From contig NW_003129357.1 of assembly GCF_000003605.2 (NCBI RefSeq), positions 731,893-757,679 on the forward strand: a stretch of 25,787 bases of DNA, written 5' to 3'. The notes beneath the pieces are model-generated. The model was given only the letters and a program-made list of their open reading frames with translations. It was not told the origin of the DNA and searched no databases. The position numbers and the translations under genes were made by a program. The stretch's first letter is position 1, and every line of letters starts with the position of its first letter. Positions 261-25,787 of the stretch are shown here, in pieces. Source of the DNA: Saccoglossus kowalevskii. Lineage: Eukaryota; Hemichordata; Enteropneusta; Harrimaniidae.

Positions 261-410
261 AACAACATACCCATCAGGATCTGTCACCGTGTATATGCTA
301 TCAGTAAACAATAATCAGTCTACAATAGTGTCTCTTAGTGCTGGATCACTCCGCCTTGGTGTAGATCAATATTTATTGACATACCCACCTGCAGAGGGCG
401 TTACATCTAG
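261..410 (+). CDS. penultimate coding exon of the plus-strand heparanase-like gene
   Basis: The exon is bounded by acceptor TGCATTGTAG and donor TCTAG|GTAAAC and is 150 bp long, in phase with the next exon. It encodes the beta-sandwich stretch TTYPSGSVTVYMLSVNNN followed by QSTIVSLSAGSLRLGVDQYL and a TYPPAEGVTSR end. It matches minus-strand exon 6053-6202 at 146 of 150 bases. The alignment fades about 20 bases upstream and 15 bases downstream of the exon. Confidence 0.88.
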
Positions 411-1172
411 GTAAACAAATAGTTGAGTCATTTGCCCTGATTATTTGCCTGTACTTGATGAATACATTGATATAGCATATAGCATACCAGAGGCCAAACC
501 TGCATCGCGTCATTGCATAAGTAGCCTGGCAAACCACTTACACACCGAGACATAACCTGACTAACTAATAATGTAAAAACAATACTGCACGGGTCCCTTA
601 CCATTTAAATTCGAAACTAAACTACGTCAATGCTAGGACAAAAGCACATATCGGTTAAACCCCCCCCCCTCAAGTACAGGGGCTTGCTGGTGTATTGGGT
701 GATTATGGAAATATATCGGGCATATTCTATCACGGAAAATAACCTCCAGATGTCGTAAAGTGGTTGACATGTCATTTAATTTGCCACACACTGTGGCGTA
801 TTTCTGGTGTATTACGATATGTACCATTAACATTACCCACAAAACTACATCTCATACGTCCCATATATGCTACTTTCTGTGTGTATTAACAGTGTATTAA
901 GTTCTCAAAAGTAAACTTAAGCCATCTGAACTCAACAACATTCTTCTGTATCGAACAATACATGTTTTCTATACATGATGCAATGTTTACTCATTATTCA
1001 TTGTCATTACAGTCATGTGGAATTGAATGGAAAGAAACTGAAAATGATGGATGATCACACCTTGCCAGATTTCCCACCTCAAACGATCGCAGCTGGATCT
1101 CCTATCAACATGCCACCTCTGTCATTTGGATTTTACGTTATACCTGGAGCCATGGCTGATGCATGCATGTAG
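261..1172 (+). CDS. HPSE-like: heparanase-like gene, 3' end only (last two coding exons; gene continues left of the window)
   Basis: The spliced exons 261-410 and 1013-1172 encode the C-terminal ~102 residues of a GH79 heparanase, an endo-beta-glucuronidase that cleaves heparan sulfate at the cell surface, in the matrix and in lysosomes. The reading frame enters exon 261-410 needing one base to finish a codon, leaves it with AG, and continues with T to a serine. The end ...VIPGAMADACM-stop matches the heparanase C terminus, including the cysteine two residues from the end that in human heparanase is disulfide-bonded. The catalytic exons lie outside the window. The gene faces the complete minus-strand paralog tail to tail, and the two visible exons are 98% identical to it. 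Its protein differs at three positions: Ser for Pro, Met for Ile and Met for Val. Whether the upstream part is intact cannot be seen. Confidence 0.88.
411..1012 (+). other. intron of the plus-strand heparanase-like gene
   Basis: A GT-AG intron of 602 bp. Only the first ~15 and the last ~12 bases resemble the corresponding minus-strand intron (5047-6052, 1006 bp). It contains a C-tract near 661-669 and no other recognised feature. Confidence 0.8.
1013..1172 (+). CDS. last coding exon of the plus-strand heparanase-like gene
   Basis: The exon starts after acceptor GTCATTACAG and ends with TAG at 1170-1172. It encodes HVELNGKKLKMMDDHTLPDF, then PPQTIAAGSPINMPPLSFGF and YVIPGAMADACM. This matches the conserved heparanase C-terminal pattern (V-LNG--LKM-DD-TLP ... 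F-VI--A---C). It is identical to minus-strand exon 4887-5046 at 158 of 160 bases. Confidence 0.9.
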
Positions 1173-4100
1173 TTCTGTGTTTCATTTTAGTACAGACTGA
1201 AGAACTCACTAATAAGCAAACGCTTTAGTTCAATGGTCTAAAATATTATATTAAGAGTTTGTTGCATCTTAGATAGACACGTGTTTCGCACTAAGGCAAA
1301 TTTTGTTCCGAAAAACACGGCCTTGAATCTTAGTGATACCTTGTTTAATGGACAGACACCTTATATATCCTGATACAGAAAAGGGCAGAAAATTGGATAC
1401 ACTGTAAATGTGTTATAAATGTATATTTTTATCAATCAAAATGTCTATTAGATTTCAAAATGGTCAGTCCAGAAATGGCAATATAACATCATCATGAGCT
1501 CGTTTTGTATATGTAGGCGGTCGCAGTTTGCTATGTCACGTGAAGAAATGCGCGTGCACTATGCACACGGACAGTGTTGAATATTTTTCGCAAATCCCCT
1601 TTAAATATTTTAATAAAATCTGTAGACGGTATTTACAAATGTATACCGTGTACTGTTTAATCATATTTGTCAACACCATGTTACGTGTTAAAATAAAGAG
1701 TGGGTAAAAATGTTCAACCCCCCCAATCATCAATAGTATGATACGCGCTAATACAGTAGGCATAATAGCAACATTGTTTCAAATATGTATAATTGTGAAA
1801 TAAAAGTTAAAATATGTTGTTTTTAATGTTATTTTTCGTTTTTCTCCAGATAATTCAAGGTACAATTATTGAAAAAGTATTGTTGCAGTGTATATATCAT
1901 TTCATATTTTGTGCGATGCATGTTTCGTGGATGAGGAGTAAACGTTTTGCGCTGTTATGGATTCCCACTAACTTGGTAAAATATCGAGTATATGTTTAGA
2001 AATACGCCTGTTCACAGTACCACTGTCCAATCAGTCAAGTTAGTTAATGCTGGTTTTGGCAAAGAAATGCGCATACCTGGTAACAACCAATATCTCTGAA
2101 ATCGTTTGTTTTATTTGTCTCGATGCGCACTCTTACCAAGAAGATCAAATGCGTGTCGTGGCAAACGTGCATAATGCTTGAAAACCATTCGCAATTAATT
2201 TGGCTAGAAAGGTGTTAATTTTCGCAATAAATGGTGTCCTTTTGATGACGAAATGCTCAAACATCGTTCGAAGTCATGACTGAATTTCACCTGTGGGTAT
2301 CTGTGAAAACGATTTTCATCTGCATGCTCAAATAGTTAACGATTTCGAACGGTTTTGCAATTCAGCACGGTTTAAAGAACCGTGTCGATTTCTACAGACT
2401 TGGCAAATTAGAAGATAATGAACACATTGCATGTCATAATAACAAAGTAATGTCCCAAAGTGTTTGCTGTAACGGGGTTGCAGTGTATTTCTGATATAAT
2501 TGTAAAACTGAACAAATCATAGTCATATGTTGTTAGGAAAAAATAAACCTCTCTCGCAAAAGTTTTTGCTGATCATCATTTTGATGTTCAACATAGTACA
2601 GTTTACATTAACTAGCTCGCAATGTTATGTGCTGCATGTACCTTCTCGGGATTGATTTTGCCCAGCATGGTCTGTAACCATTGTGGTTAAAGTTTGATAA
2701 TTCAACTCGTGTACCATTGCCCACAATTGAAGTAGATAATTTTGCACTGACAACTGATTTCATTTTGATTTCACACGACACGGAGAAGATTCATAACGTC
2801 TATGAACATTTCGTGGATCATAAATCGTTGTTGTAATCATCCCAATTAATTTGCATAGTTAGCAAGTATTTAACACACGAGGCACATTAAGTTCATGACA
2901 TATACAAAGCAGCAAATATTTAGAAAACAAGAGATTTCATTCAAAATAGGTAAATTTCAATGTTGTTCATTAACTTATAGCCATTGGCTGTTAAAGAGCA
3001 AGATATCAGACTAGTTTTTCTGATGGAGAGAAAGCCCTTGTACAACACTAGCAGAAGAGTTCCTAAGCGCTATTGGGCAAAGATACATGAGAAAGGGTGA
3101 TACACTTTGAATGAAGACTGAACCGATGGCTTAGAAAGAGAAACTTATCGCGACACTGCGAGTGCAGGTTTTTGGCGAGCCTCCCCAAGACAGAAGGTCA
3201 CATCGATTGGCAAGTCTGTGTCCATAACATATAGTGCATTGTGACAGTGGTGACATACCTCAAATGCGATGGAGAACCAGATAAACAATTTTGAATAATT
3301 TGGCACCGAACAGATCATATCACTATCTTGGCGCAACAATTTTCATTACCAGACTTGTTTTTTTCCTTGGCATGGAGTGGTAGATAAATCAGTCACTAGA
3401 ATACCACGTGTTAAACCTATGGCCAACGCCAATCATATTTTCGTTTACCAATTATCAAAATCAGTCAGTCTATGTGTCATGGACCTTATGTAACTAAGCT
3501 TTCATGTGGTATGCCATATCAATGATATTATATGTGCAGAAGTTCCCACCTCTGAATTCAGTACTGCATAAATTACAGCTGGTGAGCAATGCTGTGATAC
3601 AACACTGACAGAATCAGATTGGCTGAACGGGGCATGGTTTACCCTGCCCCCAAGTCTACATGTAGATCATTCAAGGAAGCTACCATAATACCAAATATTA
3701 TTGATAAAACTGCATAGATGTACTCCAACATACCCACAATCGCATATTGAGATGTGCTTGAGAAATGTTGTCATGTAAAATGTTTTTCAAAGCCTATGAC
3801 GAAATCTGCAGTAAACAAACTTAAAAAACAGTCACCCTCTATCAGAGTCTCTGGAGAGGCTACTGAGACTGTTGAATTGCAACAGGTAATCATCCACTCT
3901 ATCCCAGTCGTGATAACGTTTTTATTACATTTTATTAGAGAGGTTCCCTGGAACAGCCAGTTCACAATCAACTGGTGAATCGGTCGCTGTACTTACTGTT
4001 CCACTTTTTATGAGCCATGGAAAAACACTGCTATTTCATCGTAACGGTATTTTACCGGTCCTAGCTTCAGGCACAATCTGTAGGTAATTATTTTTTCTTT

Positions 4101-4886
4101 TTTACAGAAAATCGAATATATATTAGTAGCAAATATAGTAGCAAACTGTTATAACATTCTATATAAGTATAGTGTTGGGAGTCAAAAGCATGAACATTTC
4201 CTGAATTGTCCAGTCAGGGCATAAAATTTTACTTTGAAGAAACGTATGACATTAGCCTCTACAACATTTACCATTTATACTAATCAATATTTGATACGAT
4301 GATTCGAACATGTTGCTGTTTTATACATAAAATGTACTCATGTTGCATCCTTTTTATTGGGTATAAAAACTGTCGTTAAAGTTGTCTAAACTTCATTTAT
4401 ACAGAAGAACACTTTATAATAATTTGCAAAACTCGAACAGTTGCCTAAAAAATTGAAAAAAAAGCAAGCGAAAGAAGATAATAAAATCGCTCACCCACAA
4501 TATTGGCCGATGTGAGTGTTAGAATATTAGTGTAAGAACAAATCCATTCCCACACTCATGTATTCATGCGCATGCATAAAATGGTTTTGTAAAACGTTTT
4601 CTGATTTGATAATATCAGTAGATCGGCACAAAGGGACTCGCAAAATACTGTCCAGTGGTGCGATGCGTAACATAAGAACCGGAACTACAAAGTGCGCAGG
4701 ATCTATGGTATGTAACCCTTGTCATGATAATGATGCAAAAACATACAAAAAGTAACTCTTGAAATCGGGATACAATAAATATCTCAGCTTGTATAAAACA
4801 CATCGTGTTCGATATGGGTTTCATGCGATGTATACGACACGTGTAAAATGTCTGTTTACTCGAAATTCGACTGCATAAAAAGAGAA
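1173..4886. other. convergent intergenic region between the two heparanase genes
   Basis: This 3.7-kb AT-rich stretch between the two stop codons should hold both 3' UTRs. Possible AATAAA signals for the plus gene lie at 1612-1617 and 1692-1697. The nearest clear one for the minus gene is near 4350 (reverse complement), about 530 bases past its stop. A small hairpin (CACGGTT...AACCGTG) lies at 2366-2384. The open frames here are short, lack family similarity and are likely chance. Confidence 0.6.
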
Positions 4887-5046
4887 CTACATGCATGCAT
4901 CAGCCATGGCTCCAGGTATAACGTAAAATCCAAATGACAGAGGTGGCATGTTGATAGGAGATCCAGCTGCGATCGTTTGAGGTGGGAAATCGGGCAAGGT
5001 GTGATCATCCACCATTTTCAGTTTCTTTCCATTCAATTCCACATGA
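4887..5046 (-). CDS. heparanase exon 9 (C terminus)
   Basis: Starts after acceptor GTCATTACAG and ends with TAG at 4889-4887. It encodes HVELNGKKLKMVDDHTLPDF and ends VIPGAMADACM, matching human VQLNGLTLKMVDDQTLPP and FVIRNAKVAACI. It is 158/160 identical to plus-strand exon 1013-1172. Confidence 0.94.
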
Positions 5047-8000
5047 CTGTAATGACAAATAAAAATATTGTATCACATATAGTATCAACTTGTCAAAATA
5101 ATAAGTAGTAGTTAGTGATCGCATTTTGTTACTAGTACCATACGAGTGTATGAGCTTGTATCATGTGGGCGTATGGCATAATTTTCATATAAGTGTATTC
5201 CATATTGTGTCATGTGGGCGTATGGTATATTGGTATAATGTGGGCATATTTGTGCCACGGTAGCGTGCAACACATTCATATTAGGTGATTCAAATTTAAA
5301 ACAAACTGACAAAGCAATTCTGGTTAAACAGGCAGGGAAACAGCTAAGTAGGGTGAATCTACCGGGTCGTAGTATTCTCGGATATTTAAAGACTATAATA
5401 TAACATGTGTATAGACTATGAATATGTTAGACAAAATATGTAGCGAATTATATAATTGAAATCAATGAAATGGGAATATATTCCAGACTAAAGTAAAATG
5501 TGCAGATGATATTTCAGACGTTAATCAGATGTTTTCCTCAGTTACACATACTATGAAATACCATTATTTCAAGCCACTACATCACTGTGGTAATAAGTAG
5601 AATATACTACGTGATAGAATAGGTGCATATGTACAGAACAGGATGATGTAGACTTGGTTGAACCATGCAGGTATTTGACCTCAGTTGTATCACATTTCGT
5701 CGACAGTGAACACAGGTTTATATTTGGAATTCTCGAAAGGAATAATGGTGAGGCGATAACAGAATAAGTAAACCTTAGAAACTTTCCGAATGACATAGTC
5801 AACTTTACTGAGTCTTGGAGTTCACTGAAATCCATCAAATGTTCAATCTGACAAACACATTCGATCTTGCTCAAACTTGATAGACTGCTCACACCAGCAC
5901 TCTAGTTAGGTGGAAAGATTGAACAAAAACCCCGTCCCACCATCGCCATAGTAACGGCCAACCAAATTATTGTTTGCAGCCTCCGGCGGATCGCCAGCTT
6001 ACCGGTTTATATGTAATGTGTGTAATTAACATATAAACAACAATTTGTTTACCTGGATGTAACGCCCTCTGCAGGTGGGTATGTCAATAAATATTGATCT
6101 ACACCAAGGCGGAGTGATCCAGCACTAAGAGACACTATTGTAGACTGATTGTTGTTTACTGATAGAATATACACGGTGACAGATCCTGGTGGGTATGTTG
6201 TTCTACAATGCAGAATGTGAATAAAATGCGTAAAACAACCACTGATTACGGCACACCTAATTATGCAGGGATTATATGCATGCGATTATTAGATCGTACA
6301 ATTATTGACGGTGAATTGGTTTGGACTGTTGTGTGCAAAATAAATCGCGTTCTCCTCAATTCGTTATGTTTATCGTTGTTATACATGAAATATACATGAG
6401 GACAATTAATTCAATTGTTTTATGATCTGTTATGTAAAAAAAATACAGTATATCAATCGATACTAACCCATTTGTGTTAGTGCAGTGTGCATATGCCCGG
6501 AGTGTATTGTCGTCATTCTGTTTAGACTGTTTACTCGTAAGTTTAACCGATAGAACTCGTTGTCCCACTAGACGTTTGTACAAAACAGACAACCAGTAAT
6601 CCTGTAGTGAAACATAAACATAGCAATTATTATAATTATACCCAAGATAAAGTAATTGTGCCCAAGCGATTCACGGCAGTGCAGACATGAAACATTTAGT
6701 AATGTTAATTAAATATATATTGATATTAATTAAATAGATATAATGACTATAACTCATCTTCTTCTTGTCTGTCATCAGATACATTATGTGATGTAGTATT
6801 TGTAGGTGAGAAAATGTTTTTTTTATAAAATGGCTGCAATCAAGTAGCCTTAAAAATAAAACAATGAAAGTACAATGACAGATATATTCAATCAACTATA
6901 TCGATATCTCATCTTTATGCATACTCTGATAAATATGTTTTTATTACACTATATATTCTGCATGTTGTATGCAAATAATTTGCGCCGCCAATAAAATGTA
7001 CACGGCCGCACGATGGCGCTATCAGCTTTAATTTCATTGATTTTTATAAAATGGCTGCAATCAAGTAGCCTTAAAAATGTAACAATGAAAGTACAATGAC
7101 AGATATATTCAATCAACTATATCGATATCTCATCTTTATGCATACTCTGATAAATATGTTTTTATTACACTATATATTCTGCATGTTGTATGCAAATAAT
7201 TTGCGCCGCCAATAAAATGTACACTGCCGCACGATGGCGCTATCAGCTTTAATTTCATTGATGCAATGATTAAGCGTAAAGTAGGAACTTGCCGGTAAAG
7301 GAATGACATCATCATCTATCAATCCCAAGTGTCCTCCAAAGAAGTTTTGTCTTATAACCACCTGCAGACCATACTTTGCTGCCACGCCGAGTTTATCGAG
7401 CCACCTGTGTATGAGACATAGTTTGACATGATTAATTAGAAAAAACAATGTGTTATTTGTTATCATTATAATATATTAATAAGGCAGATTATTTTGGTTT
7501 ACGTACAACTTATATCGTGATTTAATTAGTAGAAAGGTAGAAACACTAGTGACCTATATTGTATATTTAAAGAGCGGCAGTCGTCACGCCACGCATGCGC
7601 GAGATATGTGGGTCTTATATAAACAAAGATGGCGACTTTTACTGTTTCGCAGATCAACGAGTACAAACTGAGACGTAACCAAGCTTTAATGAGGTATTTT
7701 TAGGTGATTGAAAGTTATAAAAGGAGTCAAACCTCATACTTGTGATTTCTATTAAAAGAACGCATTGGATTATGGGAAAATCAATGTTTATCAACACAAA
7801 TATCGCACATGCGCAGCGTGACGACCACCGCCCTTTAACTGTAAAATGTGTTTTTCGGTGGGAATAAACAATAACGTTGTAATTGCTGCAACTTTCTAAA
7901 GTAATACATAATGTGACATAATTATGGTTGCCGCTACAGTGGTGAGTATATAATATTCGTTTGACCATTAGTCATTAGATTAATAATTTCTTTGCTGTGA

Positions 8001-11000
8001 CTATTTATCAAATTCAATTTAATTTATTCGTGACAAAGCAGTATTTATTAACACATTATGAACACATGCAACCGTGGGTTGAACACAATCTCAGAAATGT
8101 TCAATAATCGATCCCGTTGGATACATTCAGGACGAAGAGTGTGGTTCGTGTAATAAGTACAAGATGGTTGTATTTTGCAGTATGAAATGTACGTTGGTGT
8201 TGTTTAGTTTTATTATGATGTAATCATGTACTTACTTACAGGTATATGTAGAAGTAATGGCTAGGAGTGCTGTGAGGGCGCAGTCCAAAACAACTCCACG
8301 ATGCCCTATGGTGCCTACCTTCTAATGCACTGGTTGCTTTAATTTAAGCATGGAGTGGCCATAAAGTCAATAATTCAACAAATTAATCTCTAATGTTCAT
8401 TATCTGTTGACCACTCAGCAGTGTGGATTAAGCCTAATTTACGACTTCACTACTTAAAATAACTCTACCTTTCCAATAACAACAGTGAAACCGTGACTTT
8501 CGGATCATTTGCTTTAAAGTTTGCAGCGGTGAATTATGATCAGTAACATCATCAGCAGTGACGCTGTCGCTGATTGGCAAAATCGGAACTTCTTTTTTGT
8601 TTTACAATAAAATATAATTAATTGTCAATTTAGTCTTTTTAACGTGATCGCAAAAACTAGCGTGACTGCGAAAGAAATCCCGACTGGACACATCTGCGGG
8701 CATTTGACTGATACTAGTATTAATTATTCATGATGTCATTGTTTATTCACGAGTGGGTGTGTGAAAGTAAACGTGACGTTTTAAAGATTGATTCGATTCG
8801 ATCGCAGAGATGGATTCTTTTTTTTAAGCGCAACGGTGATACTTTCCTCCATGTTTACTGAAAACAAGTCGATTTAAATGTCCAATGTATATAAGTAGTC
8901 TTTCAAAATCACCGGGACCTCATAAGTTAAAGGTCACGTACATTAACATAGATAAGAGATGACGTATTCAGCTGCACTTTGATTCGTTGTCAATGCTAGT
9001 CAACATCTTTTAATTAGCCGGAGTGATTTCGCTCCGGTTTTCACTCCAACGCAGGGGGTCGCCTGCAGATGCGTCCAGTCGGGATTTCTTTAGCGGCCAG
9101 CTTAGTTTTCGCGCTCACACTAAAAGACTAACACAACAATTAATTATTTCTTTTTGTAAAACAAAAAAGAAGTCCAGACTTTGCCAGTCTAATTGGCTAC
9201 CCGCGCTGTCAATCACTTGGCCGGTGTATCAAATTACTAATACTATTATTAGTTTAGACACGGTTACTAAAAAAGATGAAAATGAAAAGAACATGGTTTG
9301 TTTCCTAACCGTCTTTTTTAGTAACCGTGGTTTAGATAACTACTCACATGAACCCTGCAACGTAAGTTTTCGATAAATCGGAGGAACCAACTGAACATGT
9401 TGAACCAGTTTCTCCTAGCCATATAGTTCTTCTCTCAGGTAGGTATTGCGTGACAGCATCTCGAACTTGCTCAACTTGTTTCACGAAGACATTGAGGTTG
9501 CCTACGTCGGTGAAACTTTCTGGAGTTGGAGGTTTTGAACACAGATAATACTGGTGGAACGTCGTGGAATTGGTTGCATCGCCTATTGACTTCAGAAATC
9601 TACAGAATCAATAAATACTCATGTCATATACATTTTATTATTAATATCGTATAATAGTTAATCGTCACAAATCAGCTTCTGGTTGCTCATAACAAGATTC
9701 ATTGGCTTTACTTTATTTCCTATGAAAGTCCTTTTTATGGGATCAGCGAAATCCAAGATTAAATTATTATCTCGTTGAGGATGTGTTCAGGTCGTCTATA
9801 TCCCAGCTTTCGTCATCTTTTAATTTGTGTGAAAATCATTAATTGAGTGGAAGCTCGGTAACTTGTATGTGTTGTTGTCGAATAACTGACCATGGCCCAC
9901 AAACTTAGTTGCCGTCTATATGACCATTTTATTGATGTAGAAATAAAACACTCACCCCTTTAGATATTCTAGCGAAATTGATGATGCCGATGGTTTGGTG
10001 ACGTCGGGACCAAAGAGAAGATTCGACTTGAATTCCTTTCTACTATTTAGATATTTACGCAAGGTAATAAAATCCTTTGCAAGTTGCGATGGTTCAATAC
10101 TGGTGTTTGCTTTATCCGGGAAAAGATTTGGTTCTGTTATTTAAAAAAAAAATATATTGAAGCATAACTAATGAGTATTGGGTTAAATTTCGTTTGACGG
10201 AACACCAATATAATCCAGCATTTCCTAGTATTACCAATAATACACAACATTAGTGACAACTTACCGTTTCCTAGTTCCCAGTTGACTTTATATCCTTTCT
10301 CTAATGTATAGTTGAATAGCTTAATAGCGTTGGTTGGATCCCATTCATCGCCTTTACGTATTAATACATTCAAACCAAATATCATACTCCAGCCGACTTT
10401 ATTGGCAAATTCATTGATGACATCCCAGTCATCCACTTAAAATAAAGTTAAACACATTGATTGATAAAAACGTTCACAAGGTGATTAATACTGACGTGAA
10501 TCCAAACGTGGTGGAAAATCCAATTTGTTTTTGTTTTATTTTATTGATGAGTTGAAGCACACAAAGAAAGTTAGTAATACCAACTGTATTCCAAAAGATT
10601 TTGGAATAGTTTTGTTGAATGTTATATCATGCTGAATAAATAGTGTGTTGTTTATCGTAAAATAAAACGCTGTTTTATCAGCAAATATTGCGAGACGTTT
10701 TCGTTAAAAGAAACAAACCGCACGTACGGGATATTCGAGGCGCAAATGCTACAGTTTTGTTATTTTAACAAACTCGTATTGCTGTGTTCACTGCCAAACA
10801 ACTGTATTGCCTCTGTAATGTAGCGACTCGGGTCGCGTGAGATTAACATATAACGTTTCTTCCATTTCGGTGTTGAGCTCACACACCTAATTAGCCGCAA
10901 TGCATATTAACTTTTATTACAAACCATGAACAACCTGCGTCAAGTAGACGAACAACCTTTAAAATTTGATATTATTTCGAGCGGATCGGGAAAAAATGTT

Positions 11001-12494
11001 CCTCGAGTATTTGGAGATATCAGGAGACCGTGACAAATTCATGTATTCGCTGCATTGCTATTTACGCCGCCTGGAATCTGCTTAGTTGAATGTTCTTTTC
11101 GCTTCTTGAAAAAAATGGCTTAAATCATGACTAAATCAGTCGTTGCATTCTAATTTGATAATGGTATCTACCTGTCATCGTGAATGGCCCTCCGTCTTCA
11201 TACTTTGCACCGCTTGGTGGTGGTACGCTTTCGTTGAAATATAAGAAGTCGGCAGCAGTGCCACTAACCCGCAGATGACATGGTTGAAGTCCTCGTGCTA
11301 ATGTCAGCAGTCGTGGTGAACTAAGATAAACAAAAATTCTAGTGATTAATTATACATGTATCTTTATCTTTTTTACCATCTTGCGTTGGGTACTTTGCGA
11401 TAGTTTGACAACTTCTGATAAAGTGACAACCTCTGTCACCATTCACTGCCATTCATATCAGTGGACAGATTTAGACCAGATTTATTGCGCGCCCTCACGC
11501 GACGCATTGGGTGAGTATTCATGTCAGGAAACTTCCGTGACTCAGCATACGAACTTGTATACAAGTAGATACAGCACTATTTTCGAATGGGCATAACCCC
11601 GCCCATTTTGACATGTGCCTTTGTGAGTATCAATGCAGACAACTGCGTCGTGACATCAAGATGAATGACTACACAATTATAATAGAAGTCCTTGGTAGAC
11701 TGAATAAAGATGTTTTCCCGTCTAGATACTTTAATTGGGCTGTACTCAGAGTCACATGCTTTTCACGCTGTGCTAAGGTCCAATGCATGACCTCTCATAT
11801 CGGGAAAAACATCTACACAGGCAAGTCTAGTTAATAAAGTAAGTAATTTATTAACCATTCATAAATCGTTATCTTGCATGACCAGACACTCGCAGTGTCA
11901 TAAAATGAAAGGTTAATAAAGTATTACAGTAATAAATAAAAACAAATATTGCGATTTATATTTTAAAAAAAAAACGTTTAAATAATATCTAGGGAAATGC
12001 ACTAATTTCTTCCGAAATCAACAACAGCAGGAGTAAACGCCCTGCAGTTATATAACATTATATCAAAAATCCGTCATAGTCCTACCAATAAATTAGTATA
12101 TATATAAAAACCAATTAAAACTTATCTTCAATACCAAAGTGACAGTTATCATGACACTTCCCATACATAACAGCTGTACTGTAAAACTCAGCTGATGTGC
12201 ACATACCTCAAGTCCGCTTCATTCATGCCCTACCCCAAACAAAAAACAACCTTCAGAACCACAAAGTATACATGTACAATGAACTAATCATGGTTATATA
12301 TTCACACGTGGCCTTTACCTGAGAGAGAAAATGTAAATGGAAAGTATCTCACCTGAAGTTAAGTGCGTGATAGACCCAATGTTTACGAATCATGAAGGCG
12401 TCGATCGCTACAGATAAGAATTTATCGCTGACTGTAGTTAGTGAAACATCAGTACTGACATCAACACTACTGTAAACAATCGTACTCTTCTTAA

Positions 12495-12539
<45 letters not shown>

Positions 12540-12672
12540 ACTGGTGAGACTCCTCAACGTCCACCGACGGTCTTAAAACTGTCGTTGATTGTATCCGATC
12601 GAATCGTAGACATGCATGAACAGTGACACACACGACTAAAACGATATAAGATCTGACAAAGACGTTAGCCAT
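4887..12672 (-). CDS. HPSE: heparanase (GH79 endo-beta-glucuronidase), complete nine-exon gene
   Basis: Coding exons, in transcript order, are 12672-12353, 11320-11172, 10435-10265, 10133-9956, 9599-9348, 7404-7293, 6601-6468, 6202-6053 and 5046-4887, giving 1626 bp and 541 residues. Residues 1-20 form a signal peptide, so the enzyme should be secreted or lysosomal and cut heparan sulfate. The TIM-barrel core carries the acid/base Glu214 in WELGNEPN and the nucleophile Glu336 in IWLGETG. The C-terminal beta-sandwich keeps the cysteine pair (Cys434 and Cys540) matching the human disulfide Cys437-Cys542. Sequons occur at Asn136, 198, 223, 283, 438 and 457. The start is ATG with G at -3 and +4. 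Oddities are a 14-Asn run, a very short linker region, loss of basic residues in both heparin-binding segments, and one GC-AG intron. A nearly identical 3' end lies on the opposite strand at 261-1172. A heparanase-2-type protein is less likely because both catalytic glutamates are kept. Confidence 0.93.
5047..6052 (-). other. heparanase intron 8
   Basis: A GT-AG intron of 1006 bp. It contains an imperfect direct repeat around TCATGTGGGCGTATGG (about 5162, 5210 and 5236) and nothing else recognised. It is not alignable with the plus-strand intron 411-1012 beyond the splice sites. Confidence 0.8.
6053..6202 (-). CDS. heparanase exon 8
   Basis: Runs from acceptor TGCATTGTAG to donor CATCCAG|GTAAAC and is 150 bp. 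It encodes TTYPPGSVTVYILSVNNN, QSTIVSLSAGSLRLGVDQYL and TYPPAEGVTS, part of the beta-sandwich domain (human GDLTLYAINLHN... and DKYLLRP). It is nearly identical to plus-strand exon 261-410. Confidence 0.92.
6468..6601 (-). CDS. heparanase exon 7
   Basis: Runs from acceptor CACTACAG to donor AATGG|GTTAGT and is 134 bp. It encodes DYWLSVLYKRLVGQRVLSVK and then ...NTLRAYAHCTNTN, matching human DYWLSLLFKKLVGTKVL and YLHCTNTDN. Cys434 is the conserved disulfide partner. Confidence 0.93.
6820..7262. repeat. 221-bp tandem duplication in heparanase intron 6
   Basis: The unit from TTTTATAAAATGGCTGCAAT to CTTTAATTTCATTGAT occurs at about 6820-7041 and again at about 7041-7262, offset exactly 221 bp. 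I see about three mismatches (for example ATAAAAC/ATGTAAC and CACGGCC/CACTGCC), so the duplication is recent. Confidence 0.95.
7287..7292 (-). other. non-canonical GC splice donor (GCAAGT)
   Basis: The intron begins GCAAGT immediately after the conserved PLP codons, and its acceptor is CACTACAG at 6609-6602. Positions +3 to +6 match the U1-complementary consensus, as is usual for GC-AG introns. No GT donor gives an in-frame join to exon 7 without adding unrelated residues. Confidence 0.85.
7293..7404 (-). CDS. heparanase exon 6 (GC donor)
   Basis: Runs from acceptor ATACACAG and is 112 bp, encoding WLDKLGVAAKYGLQVVIRQN then FFGGHLGLIDDDVIPLP, matching human [20 protein letters not shown]/FFG. 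Homology requires the exon to end at CCG (7293), because exon 7 resumes with DYWLS as in human PLPDYWLS. The next bases are GCAAGT, so the donor is GC rather than GT. Confidence 0.9.
7567..7838. mobile_element. TTAA-flanked MITE, copy 1 (in heparanase intron 5)
   Basis: Flanked by TTAA at 7567-7570 and 7835-7838. The terminal inverted repeats read AGAGCGGCAGTCGTCACGC at the left and AGGGCGGTGGTCGTCACGC at the right (reverse complement), followed by similar GCATGYGCGA-like sequence. The TTAA target suggests piggyBac-type mobilisation, but no transposase is present. The interior includes ATATAAACAAAGATGGCGAC, shared with the copy at 25497. A 24-codon frame starts at the ATG at 7629 and is not assigned a function. 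Confidence 0.8.
8556..9218. mobile_element. foldback / long-terminal-inverted-repeat element in heparanase intron 5
   Basis: The arm at about 8556-8701 is matched in reverse complement by the arm at about 9061-9218. The best stretch is AAAGAAATCCCGACTGGAC followed by an almost identical CATCTGC-GGC inner end. A TTCTTTTTTGTTTTACAA block and TTAATTGT also match. The interior of about 360 bp has no transposase frame but includes a small hairpin (CCGGAG...CTCCGG, 9018-9037). The exact ends and target-site duplication are not resolved, so the superfamily is unknown. Confidence 0.75.
9253..9336. mobile_element. small hairpin insertion with 6-bp flanking direct repeat
   Basis: An 18-base perfect inverted repeat (CACGGTTACTAAAAAAGA at 9259-9276 and its complement at 9312-9329) encloses a 35-base loop. 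It is flanked by TTTAGA at 9253-9258 and 9331-9336, which looks like a target-site duplication. In the heparanase transcript it begins 18 bases into intron 5. Confidence 0.6.
9348..9599 (-). CDS. heparanase exon 5 (nucleophile exon)
   Basis: Runs from acceptor GATTCTGTAG to donor TTCAT|GTGAGT and is 252 bp. It encodes FHQYYL (human HHYYL) and TIWLGETGST with the nucleophile Glu336, then SDLSKTYVAGFM (human LLSDTFAAGFM). Confidence 0.94.
9956..10133 (-). CDS. heparanase exon 4
   Basis: Runs from acceptor AAATAACAG to donor AAAGGG|GTGAGT and is 178 bp. It completes Glu214 of NEPN and encodes PNLFPDKANTS and NLLFGPDVTKPSASS. GPDV is conserved. The arginines that follow in the human second heparin-binding segment are replaced by KPSASS. 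Confidence 0.93.
10265..10435 (-). CDS. heparanase exon 3
   Basis: Runs from acceptor ATTTTAAG to donor GAAACG|GTAAGT and is 171 bp. It encodes DDWDVINEFANKVGW, SMIFGLNVLIR and KGYKVNWELGN. The last is the run-up to the acid/base glutamate, whose codon is split across the exon 3-4 junction. It aligns with human LIFGLNALLR and GYNISWELGN. Confidence 0.94.
10436..11171 (-). other. heparanase intron 2
   Basis: A GT-AG intron of 736 bp. I read part of it for a phase-compatible cassette exon that could encode the missing linker and found none without stops. No repeat is recognised. Confidence 0.7.
11172..11320 (-). CDS. heparanase exon 2
   Basis: Runs from acceptor TTTATCTTAG to donor GACAG|GTAGAT and is 149 bp. 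It encodes SPRLLTLARGLQPCHLRVSG followed by TAADFLYFNESV, matching human [28 protein letters not shown]. The exon ends GPFTMT only about 22 residues after the conserved ADFLYF, which is where the human linker would begin. Confidence 0.92.
11321..12352 (-). other. heparanase intron 1
   Basis: A GT-AG intron of 1032 bp, AT-rich. It holds two short plus-strand open frames without recognisable similarity and one possible small inverted-repeat element (11696-11829). Confidence 0.75.
11696..11829. repeat. possible small inverted-repeat element
   Basis: TAGACT...AGATGTTTTCCCG at the left is matched by CGGGAAAAACATCT...AGTCTA at the right, giving imperfect inverted ends about 130 bp apart. No target-site duplication is evident, so this may be chance or a decayed MITE. 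Confidence 0.3.
12353..12672 (-). CDS. heparanase exon 1 (signal peptide, poly-Asn tract, start of the 8-kDa-equivalent region)
   Basis: Starts with ATG (GCGATGG context) and encodes 106 codons plus AG before donor CTTCAG|GTGAGA. Residues 1-20 are hydrophobic (MANVFVRSYIVLVVCVTVHA). Residues 46-59 are asparagine. KFLSVAIDAFM aligns with the human FLSITIDASL segment. A possible 3' splice site (GTCTTTCAG) lies 9 bases before the ATG, so an upstream non-coding exon is possible. Confidence 0.88.
12496..12537 (-). repeat. (AAC)14 coding microsatellite, poly-asparagine
   Basis: Fourteen uninterrupted AAC codons (GTT on the plus strand) in exon 1 give Asn46-Asn59 between the signal peptide and the first conserved heparanase segment. 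A pure trinucleotide run is likely to vary in length between individuals without breaking the frame. Confidence 0.95.
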
Positions 12673-16400: not shown

Positions 16401-16565
16401 TTAAAGCGGGGGAGTCGTCACCTACGCATGCGTAAGGTGGCCATAGCGTGTCATTGTTTGCAAACAAGCGTCCACCCATGAGCCTTTGCGTAATTAGAAT
16501 ATGTTGCTATCGTCGCTTGCGTCTCAATTCCCGCGCGTGCGCAGGTGACGACCCTCCCGCTTTAA
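16401..16565. mobile_element. TTAA-flanked MITE, copy 2 (different interior)
   Basis: TTAA occurs at 16401-16404 and 16562-16565. The terminal inverted repeats AGCGGGGGAGTCGTCACCT and AGCGGGAGGGTCGTCACCT differ at two positions and continue into CGCAYGCG. The ends are related to the element at 7567-7838, but the roughly 100-bp interior is unrelated. It has no coding capacity. Confidence 0.8.
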
Positions 16566-17040: not shown

Positions 17041-18115
17041 ATTACATACGATACTCAGGTAACGTATCACACAATTCATTTTAGTAAACATTACATTACG
17101 ACATTCAGGTTACTTGTAATGCAATCCATCATAACGATTTATACAATTGATACGCAATTAATTACGTGTAACACAGCTCGTCACGTCAATCATGTGACAT
17201 ATAAAACATTGATCATATTATTGTTGTTACTCGTGAATGAAAACCACATTAGTTGTAATCCATTGCAAAACGATAAATCCAACACCAAGCTTCCACAATA
17301 CTGAACTTGATTTTGATACAACTAATTATATTAGGATTGCGAAACAAAATGTCTAATTCACAACGACAATGAAGTTACCTCTAACACAATTCACCGCAAC
17401 ACTGGGATTATGTATAATCTATCTCGTGACAATACGGAGATTACGTATGATATAATTCGTCTAGATACTAAGATTACGTGTAATAATACTAACCTCACAG
17501 CCAGGTTAGTTGTAATCCAGCACACAGCGGTAAATCGAACACGACAAGTCGACAGGATGCTGAAGTTGATTTTAATACAATTTACGGTGATGTTGAGATT
17601 GCGCCGAAATATAATTCGTAACGATAAAGAGTTTTCGTCTAATGCAATTCACCGCGACACTAAGATCGTGTCTATTACAATTCGTCACGTTAATGACCTT
17701 ACTTGTATTACAATTCGTCACATTACAATTTGACACGATACTAAGGTTACGTATAATACGGTTTGTCACATGCTGAGATATAGTGTAATGAACTATACCA
17801 ATATACCAATATTGCCAATATACTGAGGATAGGTGTAATACAGTTCATTACAATACTGGCGTTACGTGTAATACAGTTCGTTACAATACTGATGTTACGT
17901 GTAATACAGTTCATCACAATACTGACGTTAGGTATAATACACTTTGCTACTCTACTGAGGTTACGTAATACAGTTTGTTGCAAAACTGACGCTACGTGTA
18001 ATACAGTTTGTTGCAAAACTGACGTTACGTGTAATACAGTTTGTTGCAAAACTGACGTTACGTTACTGTACTGAGGTTATGTGTAATACAATTCGACACG
18101 ATACTGGGGACTACG
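17041..18115. repeat. 33-bp-period minisatellite with degenerate left flank
   Basis: From about 17830 to 18060 the unit AATACAGTTTGTTGCAAAAC + TGACGTTACGTGT (33 bp) repeats in tandem, three units near the right end being almost identical. To the left, variants of TTACGTGTAATACAATTCGT at looser spacing reach back to about 17041. Because 33 is a multiple of three, long open frames with an 11-residue period appear on both strands; these are repeat artefacts. Confidence 0.85.
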
Positions 18116-21321: not shown

Positions 21322-21501
21322 AGTGAAGTCAGTGGCGGATCCGGAGGGGGGCCAGGGGGCATGCCCCCCCCCCAAACGCATGACGATTCGTATCATCTGG
21401 ATTACGCATAGCTTCTCTGCGATTTACGCTCCGTATATCTTAAGCGTAGCTTGGACCCCCCCCCCCCAATACATTTTGCTGGATCCGACACTGAGTGAAG
21501 T
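21322..21501. mobile_element. hAT-type MITE with 8-bp target-site duplication
   Basis: The element 21330-21493 (164 bp) begins CAGTGGCGGATCCGG and ends with the complement of CAGTGTCGGATCCAGC. It is flanked on both sides by AGTGAAGT (21322-21329 and 21494-21501). An 8-bp duplication and CAGTG-type ends are typical of the hAT superfamily. The interior has long G and C runs and no transposase. The flanking duplication consists of minisatellite sequence, so it inserted into the existing array. Confidence 0.92.
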
Positions 21502-21645
21502 CATAATTCTCGTATGATTGCAGAGGGTGGAGACATATTCCTTGTAGGATTTCAGAGGATGGGAACATATGCTTCGTATGACTTCGGAGAGTTGAGTCAT
21601 ATGCTTCCGAATCGCATGATATCGGAGAGTGGAGCCATAAGCCCC

Positions 21646-22270
21646 GTATGATATCGGAGAGTTGAGTCATATGCTTCGTATGATATCGGAGAGTGGATTC
21701 ATGTGCCACGTATAATATAGGAGAGTGGAGCCATAAGTCCCGTATGATATCAGAGAGTTGAGTCATATGCTTGGTCTGATATCGGAGAGTGGATTCATGT
21801 GCCAGGTATGATATCGGAGAGTGGAGCCATATGCTTCGTATGATATTGGAGAGTGGAGCCATAAGCCCCGTATGATATCGGAGAGTTGAGTCATATGCGT
21901 CGTATGATTTCAGAGGATGGGGACATATGCTTCGTATGATATCGGAGAGTTGAGTCATATGCTTCGTATGATATCGGAGAGTGGATTCATGTGCCACGTA
22001 TGATATAGGAGAGTGGAGCCATAAGTCCCGTATGATATCAGAGAGTTGAGTCATATGCTTGGTCTGATATCGGAGAGTGGATTCATGTGCCAGGTTTGAT
22101 ATCGGAGAGTGGAGCCATATGCTTCGTATGATATTGGAGAGTGGAGCCATAAGCCCCGTATGATATCGGAGAGTTGAGTCATATGCGTCGTATGATTTCA
22201 GAGGATGGGGACATATGCTTCGTATGATATCGGAGAGTTGAGTCATATGCTTCGTATGATATCGGAGAGT
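21646..22270. repeat. 288-bp higher-order repeat (9 x 32 bp), about 2.2 copies
   Basis: Copy one is 21646-21933, copy two is 21934-22221, and a third begins at 22222 and fades by about 22270. The same ordered series of nine variant 32-bp units recurs at an offset of exactly 288 bp with only a few differences that I can see (for example GTATAATATAG/GTATGATATAG and AGGTATG/AGGTTTG). Confidence 0.93.
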
Positions 22271-23105
22271 GAAACATATTCCTTGTGTGCATATGTTCTT
22301 CATGTAGTATTAGAGAGAAAAGTAATATTTGGCAACATATTCCTTGTGTGATATCAGACAGAGGAGTAATATTTCTCGTATGGTATCAAAGTGTAGAGAC
22401 AAGTTCCTCGTGAGATATCATAGTGTGTGGTTGTAATAAATATCAGAGGATTGAGACCGTGCATGATATAAGCGGGGTGGAGACGTATTCCTCATATGAT
22501 ATCGGAGTGTGGAGACATATCTTTCGTCAGGGGAGCCAGGTATCTCCTCGTATTATATTCGAGTATGACTTCCTAATCTTTGTGTGATATTGGAGGATAT
22601 AAACATATACCTTGTGTGATATCCGACGATATTATCTTGTGATAATAGAGGGTGGAGACATGTTCATTGTGTGGAGACACATTTATCGTATGATATTAAA
22701 GGAGGAAGATATATTTCTTGTGTGGTACTAGAGTGTGCAGTCATAATCCTTATATGATATCATAGGGTGGAGATATGTTCCTTGTGTGATATCAGAGATT
22801 GATTACATATTCCTAATGTGATATCAGAAAGTAGATACACATCTCTCGTGTGCTATCAGAAAGTGGAGACGTATTTCTTGAGTTCAATTGTCACGGTGGA
22901 GTCATGTTTCTCGGGTGATACAAAAGTTTGGAATGGATGCGTATTCGTCGTGTGATGTCGAAAGGTGAAGTAATAATTCTCGTGTGATATCAGAGGTAGT
23001 GGCATATTGCTAGAGTGATATCAGAGTGTAGATACATATACGTAGTTTGGTATCAGTAGATGAAGATATATATCTAGTATGATACCAAAGATGATATTAG
23101 AGTGT

Positions 23106-25496
23106 ACATGCATATAATCCTCATTCATTCATTCATTTATTTATTCAATGTTAGTATATTTACTGTGCGTTCACATATTTGGAAAATAGTTGTACACAAT
23201 TGCTATAATCGTTATGGCCATATATCCACATACTCATCGTGATACATTGAGGGCTGTTGTGATTATACTTCAAAGAGAGCAATAGGTCGCACATATTCCG
23301 TAATACAAATCGCATTAAGTACAGCGAGTAAAATACTCACAGCGGGAATAAACATGGCAATTATACATACTTAATATACTAGCGATACCATTTTTTTCTC
23401 CTATACATTACTATGACTGTGTATACAGACTTGGTTTCCGTTGCCATGGTTGTTATGGAAGATAATTTAAACTGTCACTTTGGCGTGAAGTCTCTTGTAA
23501 TATCCTCGAATTCATTGACAGATGAATTTAAAAGGGACACGTGCAAACTTCTTTCAATAAAGTATCTTAAATGAGCGCATTGAAATATCCCTAAGATAAC
23601 CCATTAGATATCAGTAGATCGTTAATGTGACATGGACAGATTCTGAGCCGATGCATCAAAACTCGACACGAGTCCCAGGCGCCGTATCACTGATGTTTTC
23701 GCCGTTGTCATGGCAGTAATTACGCTATAAGAGTTCAAATTGAACATGTTTAATTCTGCTGTTACACATCATTGCCATGTAGGTCATTTTTTAGTAAATA
23801 GTGCGCGCAATCAACGTTTGGATTATCGTAGCATATGTGATTATATTGGTGGTGAATAATTAATGTCTACGTGACCAAAAAAAGAAGTTTCGATTCATGT
23901 GAAATTTTACGTCTGCCACAACGAAATTCTGATCGAATTGTTTTTAACGTAACTGCTTGAAATAGTGAAAATATATACACATAAATTTGTGTTTGTTTCT
24001 TAATCGTATCAATATAATAGTTGCATATGTGATTGTGCAACGATGTCCATTCCCATTCGCTGTTGTTATATCGGAACTTGAATTATGAGCCATCTCGGAC
24101 TGTCGAATTAACAGGTGAAATATTTGTTTGAAACTTGGTTTGATGGAAGGGCCCATATTGTATTAAACTACACACTTCAATCACATGTGTTCGTAAGATT
24201 TACGAACAGAAACGTGATTTACATTTAACGGTTTAACAAAGATGGATGATGATCTCTAATCGCTCCTTTAAAGGAGAATTTTACGACACGGGGACGCCGA
24301 AAATAGTGTCGACCCGAGGCGCATAAATCCTATTCTAAGTGAACAGACTAGTAATAAATTACCTACCCGAAAAATAACCCCGATTTACATTATCAAAACT
24401 GTGTGTTCTACTTTTATCTTATCGGGAAATTTCTCGAAAGTAATAAATGGAATTACGTTGGATACATCGCCGTTAGCAATCACCCTTTAAACGTTGCGTG
24501 CCTCATGGTTGGCGGGTCAGTAGCAACAACTCCAATGTATTCCGCCTATGGCTCTGCACGCAGCTCTGCCGACGTAATCAAAATTGAAACCCTGAGAGCA
24601 AATGGCATTCTATTTGATTTAATATAACGTCAGCGAGGGAGTTGGTTAATGCTTTACTAACCGAGTCAGTTACAACTGGTATATCTTTAATGTTTCGCTG
24701 TGTTCCTGCGAGCTATCCCCTTGTGTTTACCGTGAGGTGAGTAGAGGGCGTTACATATATTGATATGATATACGATTACTCGTTTTTTGTTTTTTTGTTT
24801 TTACGGGCGTTGCTGGAAGTAAAAGGTAACTTGGCGTCCGAAAGACGCGCACTATTTGGACTTAATAGCGTATAGGTTACTAAGCATACTAGAAGTATAT
24901 TCGGACAGCAAACGCCGATTACGACTTGTCGCGTGTTGTTCATGTGTGATGGTTACCGATGAGGTGTTCTCCGCAAGGTGTGTATATCTGTTTTGACACT
25001 CTCACGCACGCGATGGCCAGGTTATGCAGGTTATCACGTCTCGGAGAATATAAATAAATGAAAGCAATCGATAATCGCTCGGCGACTCATGGAAATTCTG
25101 ACGATACGCTCTGTAATAGATAACGGGTAACAAGTAGAAAGAATACTGCAACGGATAGATCATTTGCATATCACGTTCTAATAGCAGAGATCTTTTGATC
25201 CATTCGAAGAATAGACGTTTATTTTGATCTCCTGATCGGGACATTGATACATCAATCGGAAAAGAAATTCGCATAACTCACACAAATAACGTTCGACTCA
25301 GGTGTGCTTGTAATCTTACTAACGCGATTTACTGCGGCTGCCGTGTCTCGTTTCATTGTGTCTCCAAAGTTCAGCTTAGAATGGCTCTGCATATCAATTG
25401 AGTAAATGGTTATTTATGTGTGACTTTGTGTTTATCATTTTCATCACGATGACTCAAATGCATGCGTTGACTCTGAGTGTAGCTATTAGCAACAAT
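23106..25496. other. AT-rich stretch with no recognised gene
   Basis: It begins with a short ATTC microsatellite (about 23124-23145) and includes a 14-bp palindrome CTCCTTTAAAGGAG at 24263-24276. Open frames at 24403-24627 and 25002-25274 have no recognisable domain, motif or splice context. Confidence 0.5.
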
Positions 25497-25787
25497 AGCG
25501 GTAGTCGTCGCGCTGCGCATGTGCGAGATATATGGGTCTCATATAAACAAAGATGGCGACTTTGACTGTTGCGCAGATCAACGAGTAAGAACTGAAGACG
25601 TTTTCAAGCTTTAATTATAATTTTCATGTTATTGGAAGGCATGGAAGGAGTCACCGGTGGTAAATCATGCATGTCGCGCCAAGGTCAAACCTCATACTTG
25701 TGATTTCCATTTGAAGAGCGCATTGGATTGTGGGAAAATCAATGTTTATCAAGCACAATGTGGCACATGCGCAGCGCGACGACTACC
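25497..25787. mobile_element. TTAA-family MITE, copy 3 (runs to the right window edge)
   Basis: The ends GGTAGTCGTCGCGCTGCGCA and the complement of TGCGCAGCGCGACGACTACC match over about 25 bases. The interior is closely similar to the element at 7567-7838, including ATATAAACAAAGATGGCGAC, CAGATCAACGAGTA and CTCATACTTGTGATTTC. It carries about 35 bp absent from copy 1. The right end and target site are cut off by the window edge. Confidence 0.85.

Follow-up and report, generated by a model that had tools for sequence, protein, structure and literature searches.

Patchy divergence between two adjacent, inverted heparanase-like genes of Saccoglossus kowalevskii suggests recent gene conversion between old paralogs

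How can two neighbouring genes carry exons that are nearly the same at synonymous sites as well as in protein, while the introns beside those exons cannot be aligned at all? The question is raised by a pair of heparanase paralogs in the stretch of 25,787 nucleotides analysed here (the window), which lie adjacent and inverted, tail to tail, with 3.7 kb between their stop codons. Their exons in the window are listed below; exon numbering for both genes follows the right gene.

261..410, plus strand: left gene e8, second-last exon
1013..1172, plus strand: left gene e9, last exon with stop codon
4887..5046, minus strand: right gene e9, last exon
6053..6202, minus strand: right gene e8
6468..6601, minus strand: right gene e7, no visible left counterpart (N run)
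7291-7292, minus strand: GC in place of GT donor, right intron 6
7293..7404, minus strand: right gene e6, GC-AG intron next, no visible left counterpart (N run)
9348..9599, minus strand: right gene e5 (WLGET motif), no visible left counterpart
9956..10133, minus strand: right gene e4, unconverted (see below)
10265..10435, minus strand: right gene e3
11172..11320, minus strand: right gene e2
12353..12672, minus strand: right gene e1 with start codon

The right gene, on the minus strand, is complete in the window, with nine exons (e1-e9), 541 codons plus a stop, a frame that is open throughout, and seven GT-AG introns and one GC-AG intron. Its protein matches the Pfam GH79 family (PF03662, E 4.9e-24) and heparanase 5la4 (E 4.1e-100), with WELGNEPN and WLGETG aligned to 5la4; the left gene also has NEP. 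We take the NEP and WLGET motifs to mark both catalytic glutamates of GH79 heparanase. Judged by its reading frame, the right copy is predicted to be intact and to encode a GH79 heparanase-like protein of 541 residues. Two peculiarities of this copy may be recorded here: intron 6 contains a 221-bp head-to-tail duplication (6820-7262, copies 99% identical), and within e1 a pure three-base repeat at 12495-12539, absent from the left gene, encodes 14 consecutive asparagines. The left gene, on the plus strand, starts left of the window, with e1-e4 at window positions -10817 to -6686. A 6.2-kb N run (-6240 to 0) interrupts it; e1-e4 and e8-e9 are joined across this run by scaffolding only, and e5-e7 presumably sit inside it. 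In all six of its visible exons the frame is open, and the exon borders match those of the right gene.

The contrast that first drew attention to the pair is in e8 and e9, both copies of which lie in one N-free stretch. The copies of e8 (261-410 plus, 6202-6053 minus) are identical at 146 of 150 positions and those of e9 (1013-1172 plus, 5046-4887 minus) at 158 of 160, with dS of 0.047 and 0.029; by codon the six differences divide into three synonymous and three non-synonymous. The first-pass annotation had given the same difference counts and the same split, and a recount found them exact. It had also described the introns and 3' flanks as unalignable, and here we agree: intron 8 is 602 bp in the left gene and 1006 bp in the right (GT-AG in both), and flanking identity stops within 4 to 26 bases, with 24 of 26 identical upstream and 14 of 15 downstream of e8, and 12 exact matches upstream of e9 and four past its stop. 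Aligned 3' flanks score no better than shuffled sequence (167 of 200 shuffles reach the score). Comparisons of the upstream intron and of the intron do beat all 200 shuffles, with best alignments that stop at the exon border.

Four further exon pairs (e1-e4) could be compared using neighbouring scaffold sequence, for six visible pairs in all, and they reveal a mosaic. Divergence is low at the end of e1 (dS 0.041), in the first 43 codons of e2 (0.029) and in e3 (0.031, one difference in 171 positions), and high at the start of e1 (0.63) and in e4 (0.81), while the last seven codons of e2 hold four synonymous changes on 5.3 synonymous sites; gapped codons were excluded from the dS calculation. 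Expressed as pS, the divergent portions stand at 0.43 (5' part of e1), 0.75 (last seven codons of e2) and 0.50 (e4). Coding indels occur in e1 and e4, that in e4 spanning three codons. Pooled dS is 0.036 over the five low-divergence tracts against 0.76 over the remainder of the same gene pair, with the limits of the e1 and e2 segments picked after the alignment was seen. Heterogeneity is also evident at the level of whole exons, where no choice of segment enters: synonymous differences among degenerate codons for the same residue number 13 of 67 in e1, 5 of 47 in e2, 1 of 52 in e3, 14 of 46 in e4, 2 of 49 in e8 and 1 of 47 in e9 (chi-square p 8e-6, Monte Carlo p 5e-5). A post hoc grouping of e3, e8 and e9 (4/148) against e4 (14/46) gives p 4.7e-7. 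Weaker tests on synonymous identity give p 0.034 for the longest run and p 0.0025 for the sum of squared runs, and a two-state model with rates set by us separates low from high blocks with a log likelihood of -314.5, compared with -373.5 for a single rate. Past their borders the introns are unalignable beside old and young exons alike, intron 3 excepted, as would be expected if the duplication is old.

In genomic coordinates the similarity falls into five low-divergence tracts among the six visible exon pairs, given here by position in the right copy.

T1, 12465-12353: to the end of e1, 3 of 113 bases differing
T2, about 11330-11189: from 10 bp before e2, 3 differences
T3, 10430-10153: e3 plus 112 bp of intron 3
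T4, about 6228-6038: e8 plus 26 bp of upstream intron, 24 of them identical
T5, about 5058-4883: e9

The tracts mostly track exons, though two stop within an exon, e4 is skipped, and the e3 tract enters an intron; breakpoints fall in e1 at 12466/12465, in e2 at about 11188 and in intron 3 at 10153. Some identity at splice sites is not proof of conversion, as unconverted e4 has 13 identical bases past its donor and only three before its acceptor. Measured against this control, the 14 of 15 identical bases after e8 are not in excess, whereas two stretches are: the one of 26 bp upstream of e8, with 24 identical, and the one of 112 bp past e3, with 111 identical.

When the last exon was searched as DNA against the 572-Mb assembly (4830 contigs), it returned two matches, both belonging to this pair on one contig (C2106, of which the window is 731893-757679), so far as the assembly goes supporting two real loci in one genome. 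A genome-wide search with a 435-residue protein query (e2-e9, without e1) returned at least 18 matches, at least 13 of them on C2106, all to this pair, and at least five on C1601, where a third, distant heparanase-like gene (C1601:171317-178045) matches e3-e7 exon by exon. Among the matches listed, e5-e7 are represented by the right gene and C1601 only, and the pair provides the only two close copies found by the e9 DNA search and the protein search without e1. No e8 or e9 of the C1601 paralog was found in the stretch examined, which enters an N run, and the 156 kb surrounding the pair, of which 104 kb is readable, yielded no further paralog that could have been a donor. The C1601 paralog has diverged too far for synonymous changes to be polarised with it; its WLGETSS stretch is nearer to the corresponding part of heparanase 5la4 than is that of the right gene.

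We consider it likely that these are old adjacent inverted heparanase paralogs that have lately been patched by ectopic (interlocus) gene conversion. The heparanase paralogs would have arisen by duplication long ago, and a break in one copy would have been repaired from the chromosomal DNA of the other. Introns and flanks had by then lost their homology, so that strand pairing could begin and re-anneal only in exons plus a few bases beyond, and most tracts would stop at or near exon borders. Gene conversion as such is well supported, and the mosaic of divergence with its breakpoints is seen directly; the repair pathway, a genomic template, and a right-to-left direction for the e3 patch are what we infer. 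For independent events, the five tracts are somewhat uniform in dS. Conversion restricted to exons had been proposed in the first-pass annotation, and its conversion half stands on the pooled dS contrast; the restriction holds in part only, given tract ends inside e1 and e2, the omission of e4 and the 112 bp of intron. High synonymous divergence in the remaining exon pairs had been named as evidence against the proposal, and it is indeed present in e4 and parts of e1 and e2, with low divergence elsewhere; this turns the claim into one of patchy conversion and does not remove it.

The e3 tract requires separate treatment, as its intronic part has an unusual structure:

10153..10264, minus strand: start of right intron 3, 112 bp common to the left gene with 1 mismatch

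Reading on from e3 in the left gene, one meets these 112 bp of right-type intron, next a second copy of 26 bp from the end of e3 and its donor (the two copies lie at -7857 and -7727), and after that unrelated intron. On the simplest biological reading, the right gene served as template for the repair of e3 and of a portion of intron 3, and the copied stretch was joined back to the left gene at the native end of e3, which would imply right-to-left direction and an unspliced template. On the simplest technical reading, a gap closer took reads from the right gene and left an overlap unmerged. A scan of the joined 76 kb for direct repeats (exact, at least 18 bp, within 1.5 kb) listed few others, namely simple or satellite arrays, a 20-bp satellite-motif copy at -17983/-17932, and the 221-bp duplication of right intron 6. 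Our main conclusion is not made to depend on this scar. If real, it preserves a single conversion event, showing which way the copying went and that it ended without homology within an intron.

The technical reading can be generalised to an assembly artefact in which left e3, or further exons as well, received reads of the right gene during short-read gap closing. We regard this as unlikely, though it is the alternative that survives best, and at e3 alone it can coexist with conversion elsewhere. The scar does resemble an unmerged overlap, with 26 bp repeated and about 105 bp of right-specific intron between the copies; a length of about 105 bp is close to a common read length. The scaffold contains large N runs, and the e3 tract is the most alike of the five (1 difference in 277-278 positions against 12 in 552 in the other tracts, Fisher p 0.07), a likeness that fits the biological and technical readings alike. 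Against an artefact, the e8 and e9 pairs, which carry six differences, share one N-free stretch, the e1 and e2 tracts carry three each, and few other close direct repeats are among those listed in the joined 76 kb. Moreover, sequence that confuses an assembler in this way must be near-identical anyway.

A second alternative, which we hold to be distinctly improbable, replaces the chromosomal template with reverse-transcribed RNA of the right gene, spliced or partly spliced, the introns of the recipient being looped out and retained. With the exon alignments joined as in the transcript, the two-state model does merge the tracts into two low blocks, as a transcript template would also give: one from the middle of e1 to the start of e4 (449 columns, 12 differences), the other e8-e9 (312 columns, six differences). 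The e1-e2 and e8-e9 tracts meet at splice junctions, and the tracts of e1, e2 and e9 are compatible with cDNA. However, the diverged end of e2 lies in the middle of the first spliced block; the e3 tract holds 112 bp of intron, provided that this part is correctly assembled, and a fully spliced cDNA would contain none of intron 3; and the 26 bp of intron before e8 seem to have been copied too. Of the eight right introns, the two with copied-looking stretches are the shortest (131 and 265 bp), and these could persist in a transcript that is only partly spliced. In this version, to which we give even less credence, right-gene transcripts that still contained introns 3 and 7 but had lost the long ones would have been copied into a left gene that kept its own introns. 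cDNA-templated recombination likewise would homogenise exons across splice junctions, but exact intron removal is expected of it, according to passages of one source (PMC3629103), whereas introns 1, 2, 3 and 8 are kept in both copies and the recipient shows no intron loss. A spliced cDNA template, which had been floated at the outset, is thus neither needed nor favoured, given that intron sequence lies in the e3 tract and ahead of e8 (26 bp) and that both copies retain introns. Our literature search found no case of exon-restricted or cDNA-mediated conversion, which is not to claim its absence from print; the phrase is used in another sense in the portion of PMC6563257 concerned.

It is very improbable that the near-identical exons are held in place by extreme nucleotide-level constraint, through splicing enhancers or RNA structure. 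Exon e3 is among the better-kept exons relative to the third paralog (protein identity 67%, like e6, compared with 49% for e4 and 38% for e5), and this much is in keeping with constraint. The comparison of right gene and third paralog nevertheless shows, for e3 only, that 17 of 35 degenerate codons for the same residue differ, against 1 of 52 between left and right, so the synonymous sites of e3 are free to change; boundaries also fall inside exons, and 112 bp of intron are kept as well. We give no more weight to a misjoin of divergent haplotypes of a single gene. The tail-to-tail order and the high identity of two exons had made a misjoin the main mundane alternative in the first-pass annotation, but it is contradicted by the divergence of e4 (dS 0.81) and of the start of e1 (0.63), which with the coding indels is far past usual allelic difference, and by the presence of both copies of e8 and e9 in one N-free stretch. 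Recent duplication followed by intron replacement in one copy, also suggested there, accounts for e8 and e9 taken alone but is scarcely credible for the pair, since it predicts uniformly low dS and meets highly diverged e4 and parts of e1 (its start included) and e2, as well as intron sequence common to both copies at e3.

Gene conversion between the paralogs, the reading we prefer, has ready parallels. Passages of a review of Caenorhabditis (PMC3966223) state that paralog conversion is usually reported for exons and that fast-diverging introns may impede it, and describe conversion in adjacent inverted pairs (the hsp16-48 modules, hsp70-7/hsp70-8). The heparanase pair resembles these in its near-identical patches and preference for exons, and the flanks of the hsp16 module are likewise fully diverged. 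Unlike the Caenorhabditis pairs as described there, the heparanase introns (0.1-2 kb) are unalignable and the tracts are split by exon, one of them extending into an intron and bearing a duplication scar. In some Caenorhabditis pairs conversion reaches introns (15% of events in one survey cited in the same passages), so tracts tend to respect exon limits but need not do so. Similarly, the primate class I alcohol dehydrogenases show mosaic divergence in a gene cluster, but there, as far as the relevant sections of PMC3409193 go, introns still align and join in conversion. The present pair looks like a clean instance of an already known process. It shows that conversion can persist between old duplicates by way of islands of exon homology, and it serves as a warning that near-identical exons may make an old duplication seem recent.

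Several repeats were noted in and around the pair. Related dispersed repeats at 7570-7829, inside right intron 5, and at 25494-25787 are 88% alike in parts; the latter has inverted ends, and both resemble a small non-autonomous DNA transposon. A stretch at about 16405-16560 was likened to them by eye, and within it 16415-16517 matches the neighbourhood of the left gene at 71%. Tandem arrays with 32-bp and 33-bp units occupy 21493-22271 and 17820-18063, and a satellite-like array lies just upstream of the left gene, at about -12960 to -11590, with spacings that are multiples of 26 bp.
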